A stretch of DNA of 8,600 bases from Clostridia bacterium (GTDB lineage: Bacteria > Bacillota_A > Clostridia > Oscillospirales > CAG-272): NCBI GenBank assembly GCA_017652965.1, contig JAGBZZ010000112.1, positions 1-8,600 on the forward strand, given 5' to 3'. A program made the translations under genes and the position numbers. Position 1 is the first letter of the stretch, and each line of letters begins with the position of its first letter. Of this stretch, positions 4,771 to 8,600 are shown piece by piece. Below the pieces are notes generated by a model that saw nothing but the letters and a program-made list of their open reading frames with translations, was not told the origin of the DNA and searched no databases.

Positions 4771-5868
4771 ATGGCAAAAATTCTGATCTGCCCGAACAAG
4801 TACGTTCAGGGCGCCGGCGAGATGGCTAAGATCGCCGATTATGCAAAGGCATACGGCAAAAAGGCCCTCGTCGTGATTACCGCCTCCGGCTACAAGCGGA
4901 TCGGTGCGACCCTGGAGGCAAGCTTTGGTGCCGGTGAGGTCTCGGCGGTGTACGACTACTTCAACGGTGAATGCTCCTGGAACGAGATCAACAGACTCAT
5001 CGCAGTGATGAAGGAAAACGGCTGCGACATGGTGATCGGTATCGGCGGCGGTAAGATCCTGGATACCTCCAAGGCTGTTGCCCACGCCTGCAAGACCCCT
5101 GTGATCATCTGCCCCACCATCGCCTCTACCGATGCCCCCTGCTCTGCCCTTTCGGTGGTGTACACCGACGAGGGTGTGTTTGAGGAGTATCACTGGCTTC
5201 CCGCTAACCCCAACATGGTGCTGATGGATACCGAGATCATTGCCAAGTCGCCCGCCCGCCTGACCGTGGCCGGCATCGGTGATGCCCTGGCGACCTTCTA
5301 TGAGGCAAGAGCCACCAAGAGAAAGGATGCCGGTACCTGCGCCGGCGGCAAGGTGACCTGCGCGGCTATGGCGCTGGCCGAGCTTTGCCTCAATACCCTT
5401 CTTGAGGAGGGCGTCAAGGCGAAGCTGGCACTGGAAAGCGGTGCCTGCACCGAGGCTGTCGAAAAGGTCATTGAGGCCAACACCCTGCTTTCGGGCATCG
5501 GCTTTGAGTCGGGCGGTCTTGCCGCGGCTCACGCCATCCACAACGGTCTGACCGTTCTGCCCGAGTGCCATCATATGTACCACGGCGAGAAGGTTGCCTT
5601 CGGCGTTCTCACCCAGCTGATGCTGGAGAACGTGTCGACCGAGGACCTTGACGAGATCGTCGGCTTCTGCATCGAGGTCGGCCTCCCGGTTACCCTTGGT
5701 GAGCTTGGCGTTGCCGAGGTGACCGACGAAAAGCTGATGGCGGTTGCCAAGGCGGCCACCGTCCCGGGTGAGACCATCCACAACATGCCCTTTGAGATCA
5801 CCGCCGAAAAGGTCGTGGCAGCCATGAAGGCCGCCGATGCCTACGGCAAGTATATGCTTTCTATGTAA
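4771..5868 (+). CDS. gldA: Glycerol dehydrogenase (NAD-dependent)
   Basis: A 365-residue member of the iron/zinc polyol dehydrogenase superfamily, full length for glycerol dehydrogenase, which oxidises glycerol to dihydroxyacetone with NAD. It may run in reverse in fermenters. The nucleotide-binding motif GIGGGKILDTSKA is at 90-102, and the cofactor loop PTIASTDAPCSALSVVYT is at 115-132. The expected zinc ligands are D171 (GIGDAL), H254 (AAHAIHNG) and H271 (YHGEKVAFG), matching the spacing of the Bacillus enzyme. ATG 4771 has AAGGAG seven bases upstream. The gene is monocistronic, with its own consensus promoter and a strong terminator, and is divergent from the MmgE/PrpD operon. No dihydroxyacetone kinase or glycerol facilitator is visible, so the physiological substrate could be another vicinal diol or hydroxy-ketone. 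Confidence 0.93.
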   Translation: MAKILICPNKYVQGAGEMAKIADYAKAYGKKALVVITASGYKRIGATLEASFGAGEVSAVYDYFNGECSWNEINRLIAVMKENGCDMVIGIGGGKILDTSKAVAHACKTPVIICPTIASTDAPCSALSVVYTDEGVFEEYHWLPANPNMVLMDTEIIAKSPARLTVAGIGDALATFYEARATKRKDAGTCAGGKVTCAAMALAELCLNTLLEEGVKAKLALESGACTEAVEKVIEANTLLSGIGFESGGLAAAHAIHNGLTVLPECHHMYHGEKVAFGVLTQLMLENVSTEDLDEIVGFCIEVGLPVTLGELGVAEVTDEKLMAVAKAATVPGETIHNMPFEITAEKVVAAMKAADAYGKYMLSM

Positions 5869-6038: not shown

Positions 6039-6341
6039 ATGATAACCTTACAGGATCTTGAGCGCATTGTGCCAGATCTTATCGCACAGCTGGAGAAGAT
6101 CCACCGGGATATGAGCAGATACAAAAAGCTGAATACCGATTTTCGCGGCATCACCCTGATGCGCGAGATCGAGGCCAAGATCCGCCAGATCCAAAAGGTG
6201 CATACAGCCTACCGCAATACCCCCTCCTACCGAACCAAGGATTTTTCCAACTGGGTAAGGATTCAGGAGCAGTACATTGCGGAGTGCCGGCGGATCTATG
6301 GCCGCATCAAGGAATACGAGAGCGTTAGCGGCTATTCGTAA
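6039..6341 (+). CDS. Hypothetical 100-residue helical protein
   Basis: I do not recognise a family. The start is well supported: GGGGGAG (6024-6030) sits eight bases before ATG 6039, and a consensus promoter lies 5' of it. The product is rich in charged residues and almost wholly helical in appearance. It has heptad-like hydrophobic spacing in residues 3-25 (LQDLERIVPDLIAQLEKI) and again around 37-55, suggesting two coiled-coil helices. The C-terminal part is rich in aromatic residues (YRNTPSYRTKDFSNWV, 58-73). It has one cysteine, no signal peptide, no membrane segment and no metal motif. It is probably cytoplasmic. It is the first gene of a unit continuing 41 bases later into the Fe-S aldo/keto reductase, so a partner or accessory role there is possible but unproven. 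Confidence 0.75.
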   Translation: MITLQDLERIVPDLIAQLEKIHRDMSRYKKLNTDFRGITLMREIEAKIRQIQKVHTAYRNTPSYRTKDFSNWVRIQEQYIAECRRIYGRIKEYESVSGYS

Positions 6342-6382: not shown

Positions 6383-7408
6383 GTGGAATACAGAATACTG
6401 GGAAAGACCGGCCTTAAGATCTCGCGCCTTGGGCTTGGCGGCATTCCTTTGCAAAGGATCGATGCCGACGGCACAAGAGAGCTTGTGCATACCCTTTTGG
6501 AGGCCGGCGTGAACTTTATCGACACCGCGCGGGGCTATACCGTCAGCGAGGAGTACCTCGGCCGGGCGCTTTGCGGGGTGCGGGATCGCTTTGTGCTGGC
6601 CACCAAAAGCATGGCACGCACCAAGGAGGCTATGGCAAGCGACGTAGAGACAAGCCTTCGCAGCCTCCGTACCGATTATATCGACCTCTACCAGATCCAC
6701 AACCCGAGCAAGGCCGACCTTGATACGGTGATGGCACCGGGCGGGGCGCTGGAGGCACTTCTTGAGGCGCGCGCGGCCGGCAGGATCGGCCATATCGGCA
6801 TCACGCTTCACTCGGCCGATCTGTTTGCGGAGGCACTGACCCTGCCGTGGGTCGAGACGGTGATGTTCCCCTATAATATCGTCGAGACCCAGGGGGAGGA
6901 GTATATCGCCAAATGTGCCGAGGCAGGCATCGGCTTTATCGCCATGAAGCCCCTGGCAGGCGGCGCGATCGAGGATGCCGCCACCGCCCTGCGCTTTATT
7001 GCGCAGAATCCCGCCGTAACCGTTGCGATCCCCGGGATGGCCGAGGTCGCCGAGGTCGCCGAGAACGTAGCGGCGATGACCGATGCAAGACCCATGACCG
7101 ACGCCGAGTGCGAGAGGATCGCCGCGATCCGTGCCGACCTTGGCGAAAGCTTCTGCCGCCGTTGCGGCTACTGTGCCCCCTGCACGGCAGGTATCAATAT
7201 CCCCGCCGTCTTTCTCTTTGAGGGCTACCTTAGCCGCTACGGGCTTGGGGATTGGGCAATGTCGCGCTACGGGGCACTTCCCAAAAAGGCCTCGGACTGC
7301 ATCGCCTGCGGCGCGTGTGAAGGGCGTTGCCCCTACCGCCTCCCGATCCGCGATATGATGAGAAGGGCGGCAAGCGCTATGGAAAAGGCTAGGTCGGAGG
7401 TAAAGTAA
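6383..7408 (+). CDS. Aldo/keto reductase with C-terminal double [4Fe-4S] module
   Basis: A 341-residue protein beginning at GTG 6383, supported by AAGGAG at 6371-6376. An aldo/keto reductase barrel (about 1-250) carries the full catalytic tetrad: D47 and Y52 in IDTARGY, K75 in LATKS, and H106 in YQIHNP. A ferredoxin-like tail follows with eight cysteines: C258, C261, C264, C267 (CRRCGYCAPC) and C306, C309, C312, C316 (CIACGACEGRC, then P). This architecture matches the COG1453-type family of anaerobes. The clusters suggest electron delivery from or to ferredoxin in addition to a nicotinamide cofactor. The substrate, presumably an aldehyde, ketone or sugar, is unknown. The stop overlaps the next gene's ATG (TAATG at 7406-7410), so the two are probably translationally coupled. 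Confidence 0.92.
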   Translation: MEYRILGKTGLKISRLGLGGIPLQRIDADGTRELVHTLLEAGVNFIDTARGYTVSEEYLGRALCGVRDRFVLATKSMARTKEAMASDVETSLRSLRTDYIDLYQIHNPSKADLDTVMAPGGALEALLEARAAGRIGHIGITLHSADLFAEALTLPWVETVMFPYNIVETQGEEYIAKCAEAGIGFIAMKPLAGGAIEDAATALRFIAQNPAVTVAIPGMAEVAEVAENVAAMTDARPMTDAECERIAAIRADLGESFCRRCGYCAPCTAGINIPAVFLFEGYLSRYGLGDWAMSRYGALPKKASDCIACGACEGRCPYRLPIRDMMRRAASAMEKARSEVK

Positions 7409-8600
7409 TGTTTGCAATCAAACGATTTTTCTGCCGCACCGTGCAGTTTGGCTTCCGCGTGGCGCTCCCCCTGCTCCCTTACCGCGAGCCAAAGCTTTTC
7501 CCCTCTATGGACGGGATCTCCGAGATACTTTCAAAGCACCGCCCCGCCGCCGCCCTGATCGTCACCACCGCGGGGAGTGTGCGGCGCGGCCTGATTGCCC
7601 CGATCACCGACGCCTTGGATGCCCGGGGGATCCCCTACGCCGTCTATGATAAGACACAGCCCGACCCCACCGAAAGGGACGTGGAGGAGGCACTGGCGCT
7701 TTACCGCGCGGTCGGCGCGGGGATGCTGATCGCCCCGGGGGGCGGCTCGGCCATTGACTGCGCCAAGGGGGTCGCCGCGCGGGTGGCCTATCCAAGGAAG
7801 AGGCTTGACCGCCTGGCAGGTGTGATGCGCGTTTTGCGTAAGACCCCCACCCTGGTGGCGATCCCCACCACGGCGGGCACAGGAAGCGAGACCACCCCCG
7901 CGGCCGTGATCACCGATGATGTGACTCACCGCAAATACGCGATCATCAGCTTTCCGCTGATCCCGCACTATGCCGTCCTGGATACCACCCTTAGCTAGAC
8001 CCTGCCGCCCCACCTGACCGCCACGACCGGGATGGACGCCCTGACCCACGCCGTGGAGGCCTATATCGGCCGCTCCACCACCAAAAGGACACGGCGGCTT
8101 GCCGAGGAGGCGACCGCGCTTATCTTTCAAAATATCGGGCGCGCCTATGAAAACGGACAGGACGGCAAGGCACGCGAGGCCATGCTGATAGCCTCCTACC
8201 GTGCGGGATACGCCTTTTCGGTATCCTACGTTGGCTACGTCCACGCCCTGGCGCACGCGCTAGGCGGCCGCTACGGCATCCCGCACGGGCGAGCCTGTGC
8301 CATCCTGATGCCCGCCGTCCTGGAGGCCTACGGCAAAAGCGCACACAAAAAGCTGCACCGCCTTGCGGTCGCCGCAGGGGTGGCAGCAAAGGGGGAGCGC
8401 CACGAGGCGGGGGCGCAAAAATTCATTGAGGCCGTGCGCCGCCTGGCAGCCAAATACAATATCGAAACGGAAGTTCTGGACCCGGGTATAGATTCCCCCC
8501 TGGGCAGCACGGAGAGCGCGGGTTTCCGTCTGGCAGAAAAGGCCGTTCACGCTGTGTTCCCTGACGTAAAAACCGCGCCCTATCTCATGACCGGGGCCAC
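7408..8600 (+). pseudogene. Iron-containing alcohol dehydrogenase interrupted by in-frame TAG (3' end outside window)
   Basis: GGAGG at 7396-7400 precedes ATG 7408, which overlaps the reductase stop. The N-terminus (FFCRTVQFGFRVALPLLPYREP) is family-typical. Residues 111-117 are the nucleotide motif GGGSAID, and TTAGTGSETTP (154-164) follows. Codon 197 is TAG (7996-7998), in the place where relatives read roughly L-T-x-x-L-P-P. The frame then stays open for about 200 codons to the window edge, with strong family sequence: TATTGMDALTHAVEAYIG, YVHALAHALGG and GIPHGRA. Expected iron ligands, counting TAG as one residue, are D210, H214, H279 and H293, with the family spacings of 4, 65 and 14. All lie after the TAG, so the 196-residue product should be dead. 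I annotate it as a nonsense-interrupted gene; a base-call error or amber readthrough is possible. Only the last few residues appear to be missing at the edge. Confidence 0.82.
7996..7998 (+). other. In-frame amber codon within the Fe-ADH frame
   Basis: The TAG follows LDTTLS and precedes TLPPHLTA. Flanking sequence on both sides aligns with the family without a gap, so this is a single-codon substitution, not an indel. One base change would restore Gln (CAG), Lys (AAG), Leu (TTG), Ser (TCG) or Trp (TGG). The position is variable in relatives I recall, so many residues would be tolerated there. Confidence 0.9.

Follow-up and report, generated by a model that had tools for sequence, protein, structure and literature searches.

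Does the TAG codon that stands in frame in the middle of a gene for an iron-containing alcohol dehydrogenase (ADH) specify an amino acid, does it mark a gene that is being lost, or is it a fault in the sequence? We examined this question in the window, by which we mean the whole 8,600-nucleotide stretch that was analysed (contig JAGBZZ010000112.1, from a Clostridia bacterium). From the ATG at 7408, the frame runs for 196 codons, meets the TAG at 7996-7998, and is then open up to the window end, in agreement with the original prediction that the TAG is in frame and is followed by no second stop. When the two halves were scanned apart against Pfam, Fe-ADH (PF00465) was found in the N-terminal part and ADH_Fe_C (PF25137) in the part 3' of the TAG, both in one frame, which places the TAG between the cofactor-binding and the iron-binding domains, as had been proposed. 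Residues D210, H214, H279, and H293 of the window correspond to positions 194, 198, 263, and 277 of the 3owo chain, in a region that aligns without gaps, and they are invariant in 120 of the 120 listed homologues. These four residues, which we take to be the metal ligands of the enzyme (Asp-His-His-His), all lie 3' of the TAG, so the claim that the stop is located upstream of every metal ligand also stands.

Like the group III iron-containing ADHs (e.g. alcohol dehydrogenase 2 of 3owo/3ox4, or the 1,3-propanediol and lactaldehyde reductases), the window ADH has both Pfam domains and carries the four residues at the metal-ligand positions of the alignment. Compared with these enzymes, the window ADH shows a TAG at codon 197, a C-terminus resembling an M20 peptidase, and three broken invariant columns. 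We also observe an 18-nt inverted repeat within the ADH (window 7455-7472 and 8390-8407, 94% complementary, 917 nt apart), which is possibly a chance occurrence in GC-rich coding sequence. The features of the region are collected in Table 1.

Table 1 Features of the window around the in-frame TAG, with the evidence for each.
Feature	Position	Strand	Evidence and remarks
Glycerol dehydrogenase homologue	4771-5868		PRK09423, 525.8 bits, cut-off 336
Aldo/keto reductase with 4Fe-4S dicluster domain, intact	6383..7408	+	PF00248 2.3e-39; 96% identical to P0241
N-terminal (cofactor-binding) part of the iron-containing ADH	7408..7995	+	196 codons; ORF, PF00465 2.2e-42
Three differences from P0001 in five codons (193, 196, 197)	7984..7998	+	196 invariant in 120/120
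In-frame TAG, codon 197	7996..7998	+	Tyr in 99 of the 120 listed homologues
Shortened C-terminal (metal-binding) ADH part	7999..8445	+	PF25137 4.8e-46, alignment
M20-family-peptidase-like fragment, in frame, in place of the ADH C-terminus	8446..8598	+	about 51 codons; NF006113 7.1e-6

The gene had also been described as otherwise intact, with its motifs undisturbed over about 200 codons to the window end, and this description proved wrong. In an alignment with 11 homologues, the ADH homology stops at about residue 346 (about base 8446), i.e. about 149 codons past the TAG, and the C-terminus common to the 11 aligned proteins is absent from the window copy, so that its loss from this copy is firmly established. 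Compared with an uninterrupted gene carrying the C-terminus of the family, the window ADH is interrupted at codon 197 and is M20-like from about codon 347. The premise of an otherwise intact gene is thus false, because of this fusion and of the broken conserved columns described below.

The tail matches the M20 peptidase model NF006113 of NCBIfam with 25 bits over profile positions 392-450 of 510, a score that, as expected of a fragment, does not approach the 503 bits required of the whole protein; only about 58 positions of the model fit within the window. When the tail is aligned with three M20 proteins, the change from ADH to M20 falls somewhere in 8425-8458. By tblastn, the tail matches the M20 gene of a relative, locus L001, with 30% over 56 residues (E 7e-5), and another tblastn gave an E value of 2.5e-6 at the same place (as L087). 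A stricter tblastn (1e-4) with a 51-residue piece of the tail gave no match in 80 loci of relatives, the best E values in Pfam were only 0.16 and 0.19, and comparisons of the tail with plasmids and with solved structures gave no match. The M20 assignment, which rests on the NF006113 match and on the tblastn matches to L001/L087, is well supported for so short a piece, and the replacement is most probably a fragment of an M20 peptidase. Since the ADH ends and an M20-like frame begins at about 8446, a chimeric junction lies about 450 bases past the TAG and the end of the window is not ADH sequence.

In L001, the ADH gene (8313-9512, + strand) and the M20 peptidase gene (9550-10926, - strand) are convergent, with 37 bases between them. 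This order occurs in one of the 80 loci, 72 of which extend at least 1.2 kb downstream. The M20-like piece fused to the window ADH is in the opposite orientation to the M20 gene of L001, and an inverted or amplification chimera with a downstream M20 gene would fit the gene order of this single locus.

The homologue set comprises 120 listed proteins out of 7,998 that were scored. The closest of them, P0001, encoded on a 2,029-bp contig, matches 89% of the query at 94% identity, is full length with an ordinary ADH C-terminus, and has a Tyr in the column of the TAG. Over the whole set, this column holds Tyr in 99 proteins, Phe in 12, Cys in 4, Val in 2, and Arg, Ala, and Asn in 1 each. Predicted proteins cannot carry a stop, and the codon test at the DNA level weighs more. 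The comparison of the orthologous codon at 7996, proposed along with the original prediction, was run on the DNA of 80 loci, kept from 577 confirmed in a genome scan with a best identity of 64%. These loci come mostly from gut MAGs, with many labelled Clostridia, Oscillospiraceae or Lachnospiraceae, many from deer and ruminants, and a few from other phyla, so that a gut bacterium of this kind is the probable source of the window. All 80 have a sense codon at the site (27 TAT, 5 TAC, and the rest codons for other amino acids), the residues encoded being Y, L, V, F, K, R, T, M, and E. The ADH gene stops with TAA in 40 loci, TGA in 33, and TAG in 6, while one runs off its contig, and none of the 80 has an internal stop. 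Likewise, when 394 genomes from a single order were scanned, 345 gave a match (best identity 65%), and no internal stop was present among the matches listed. A truncated close copy was not found among the 120 listed matches of the 196-residue query, for which the best identity was 62%. Phage and plasmid collections gave weak or short matches only, the longest being 63% over 43% of the query in a Subdoligranulum plasmid record, and viral contigs scanned with P0001 gave one pattern match and no relative.

Beyond the TAG itself, the window ADH deviates at three of the 100 columns that show no variation across the 120 listed homologues, with S196, R295, and C297 in place of T, L, and N. Column 196 adjoins the TAG, and columns 295 and 297 are found beside H293. 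In a leave-one-out comparison of the 120 homologues, 99 break no invariant column, 14 break one, 4 break two, and 3, P0001 included, break three; the three breaks in the window ADH are therefore not extreme. The columns that P0001 alone breaks among the homologues (89, 104, and 180) are broken in common with the window, and none is private to P0001, so that, going by these residues, the window copy would have broken three invariant columns since the two split and P0001 none. Private residues, i.e. residues absent from all 120 listed homologues, number 9 in the window over residues 1-343 when the stop is included, compared with 18 in P0001, a count that ignores residues common with the window, and with a maximum of 20 and a median of 1 in the set.

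The direct comparison with P0001 shows 18 residue differences over residues 1-343, whereas residues 1-100 are identical. All 18 differences thus fall after codon 100 (p 0.002 if they were uniform), and they are clustered, 10 of the gaps between neighbouring differences being no longer than 5 codons (p 0.00025). Part of them are ordinary allelic differences, because at residues 108, 143, 278, and 342 the window carries the commonest residue of the family. At the nucleotide level, taken as the smallest base change with ties averaged since P0001 is compared as a protein, 16 of 21 differences are toward G and 11.3 are transversions. The adjacent aldo/keto reductase, which served as the quality control for the window sequence, shows against its own close homologue P0241 7 of 14 differences toward G, 4 transversions, and a weaker clustering (p 0.012); the numbers are small, and P0001 and P0241 need not come from one strain, for the longest contig of P0241 equals in length (2,650) that of P0072, an ADH homologue of only 66% identity. 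The bias toward G might be an effect of two-colour sequencing chemistry, but our search for literature on G overcalls of this chemistry found none.

The reductase, whose stop overlaps the ADH start (TAATG), breaks no column out of 141 in which 119 or all of the 120 proteins agree, a slightly looser threshold than for the ADH, and none in the leave-one-out comparison. In the protein pairs P0004/P0263, P0083/P0293, and P0087/P0316, the longest contigs have equal lengths, which suggests that reductase and ADH may be neighbours in close relatives; a reductase within 1.5 kb of the ADH was found in 0 of the 80 loci. The glycerol dehydrogenase homologue was tried as a second quality control and dropped, its matches in 15 genomes reaching only 34% identity, with 32% for the best match. 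Between this gene and the reductase, a 100-codon ORF (6039-6341) gave no Pfam or NCBIfam match. An MmgE/PrpD protein, a type I phosphodiesterase, and a protein with sub-threshold similarity to glycoside hydrolases are also encoded upstream. The window gave no match to any Rfam family. At 620-672 and 880-932 it holds a direct repeat of 53 nt (94%), each copy forming an AT-rich hairpin with arms of 16-20 nt that hold A and T tracts, and the two copies bracket the gap between a + gene and a - gene. In appearance, this repeat is either a bidirectional terminator that has been duplicated or a palindromic element of small size.

Three origins had been put forward for the TAG, namely a recent nonsense mutation, a sequencing or assembly error, and amber readthrough or reassignment; the first two remain and share nearly all of the probability, whereas the third has gained no support. 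A TAG read as an amino acid by a suppressor tRNA, by reassignment, or as pyrrolysine would yield a full-length enzyme, and it would be consistent with a frame that stays open past the stop and retains the metal ligands, with a column that tolerates many residues, and with the stops of the seven other window genes (6 TAA and 1 TGA), which leave TAG unused. Pyrrolysine at UAG is known in some bacteria. Nevertheless, the column is without TAG in each of the 80 loci, TAG is the terminator of this same ADH gene in 6 of these relatives, and the ADH C-terminus would be absent however the codon were read. In-frame TAG in other conserved genes, a sign expected by the original prediction under reassignment, was looked for in the other seven genes of the window, which had been selected for being open frames, and was found 0 times in 2,214 codons, which include 87 Tyr codons (40 TAT and 47 TAC) and 33 Gln codons. 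The search for a CUA tRNA and PylS revealed no tRNA in the window, no CUA anticodon among the tRNAs of the 30 of 80 loci scanned, and no PylS over the cut-off in 15 genomes of distant relatives (1 of 14 in control genomes). The predicted fold of the 101 nt of RNA from 7990 is no better than that of shuffled sequences (z 0.09). We therefore regard recoding as very improbable, and still more so the variant in which rare amber suppression is tolerated or used, so that a little ADH would be made past the stop, fused to the peptidase fragment. The least credible of all is a split enzyme, in which the ORF 7408-7995 and an ORF from the ATG at 8032 would be translated separately. This ATG does open the second part, but it encodes M209, a conserved residue within the motif TGMDALTH, no N-terminal half exceeds 62% among the 120 listed matches, and the second part lacks the ADH C-terminus.

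Between the two remaining origins, we give slightly better than even odds to the TAG being an error in a base or in the assembly, close to where the contig ends in a chimera, and not a decoding feature. The window is probably part of a metagenomic contig from an uncultured gut bacterium related to Clostridia, and its last kilobase would have been poorly assembled: past about base 7708, wrong bases would occur in clusters, one of which creates the TAG, and near base 8446 the assembly would jump to part of an M20-type peptidase gene. The in-frame switch to the M20-like sequence, the confinement of all differences from P0001 to the region past codon 100, their clustering with three in codons 193-197, the three invariant columns broken by the window, the excess toward G and of transversions relative to the reductase, the absence of any broken column in this adjacent gene, and the absence of a truncated close copy among the 120 listed matches all point in this direction, and we infer that both the jump and these deviations arose as artefacts rather than as changes in the DNA of the cell. 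Some observations fit a fault less well: clustering, although weaker, is seen in the reductase too, ordinary allelic variation accounts for some of the differences, the three breaks are not extreme and the 9 private residues are fewer than those of P0001, and 343 codons pass without a frameshift, the chimera itself being in frame. The competing origin, to which we give a chance somewhat below even, is a real nonsense mutation that arose recently in a gene on its way to loss; a real deletion or rearrangement may also have fused the ADH with an M20 peptidase gene. Disabling changes, as in a pseudogene, are indeed present in the window sequence (the TAG, the lost C-terminus, and the broken columns). 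The TAG is one base away from the Tyr codons that dominate the column, the loss of invariant residues near the metal site (295 and 297) and next to the TAG (196) fits relaxed selection, and L001, with its convergent M20 gene directly downstream of the ADH, indicates that the two genes can adjoin. However, relaxed selection alone would not have spared the first 100 codons relative to P0001, and since the order of L001 is limited to 1 of the 80 loci and has its M20 gene reversed relative to the window, a simple deletion would not give the arrangement of the window. If the mutation were real, translation would stop after 196 residues, short of every metal ligand, and the product would be inactive.

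In a 2021 screen (PMC8629427), in-frame stops in pseudogenes are blamed for false inferences of recoding in yeasts; such a case shares with the window a lone in-frame stop in one conserved gene with no suppressor tRNA seen, whereas the window adds a chimeric junction about 450 bases downstream. According to the same screen, every code change known in bacteria is a reassignment of UGA, and a reassignment of TAG, if true here, would therefore matter a lot. The gut phage phAss-1 (PMC10607447) recodes TAG and carries it in 41 ORFs; in-frame TAG is common to both, and a gut setting is likely for the window too, but the window has a single TAG, located in a cellular metabolic gene.

Lone in-frame stops near a chimeric contig end can lead to false calls of recoding or of pseudogenes from metagenomes. 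A cheap check is to ask whether the frame past the stop encodes the same family to its end, which in this locus it does not. With a sequence fault as the origin of the TAG, the enzyme would probably be full length in the living strain.
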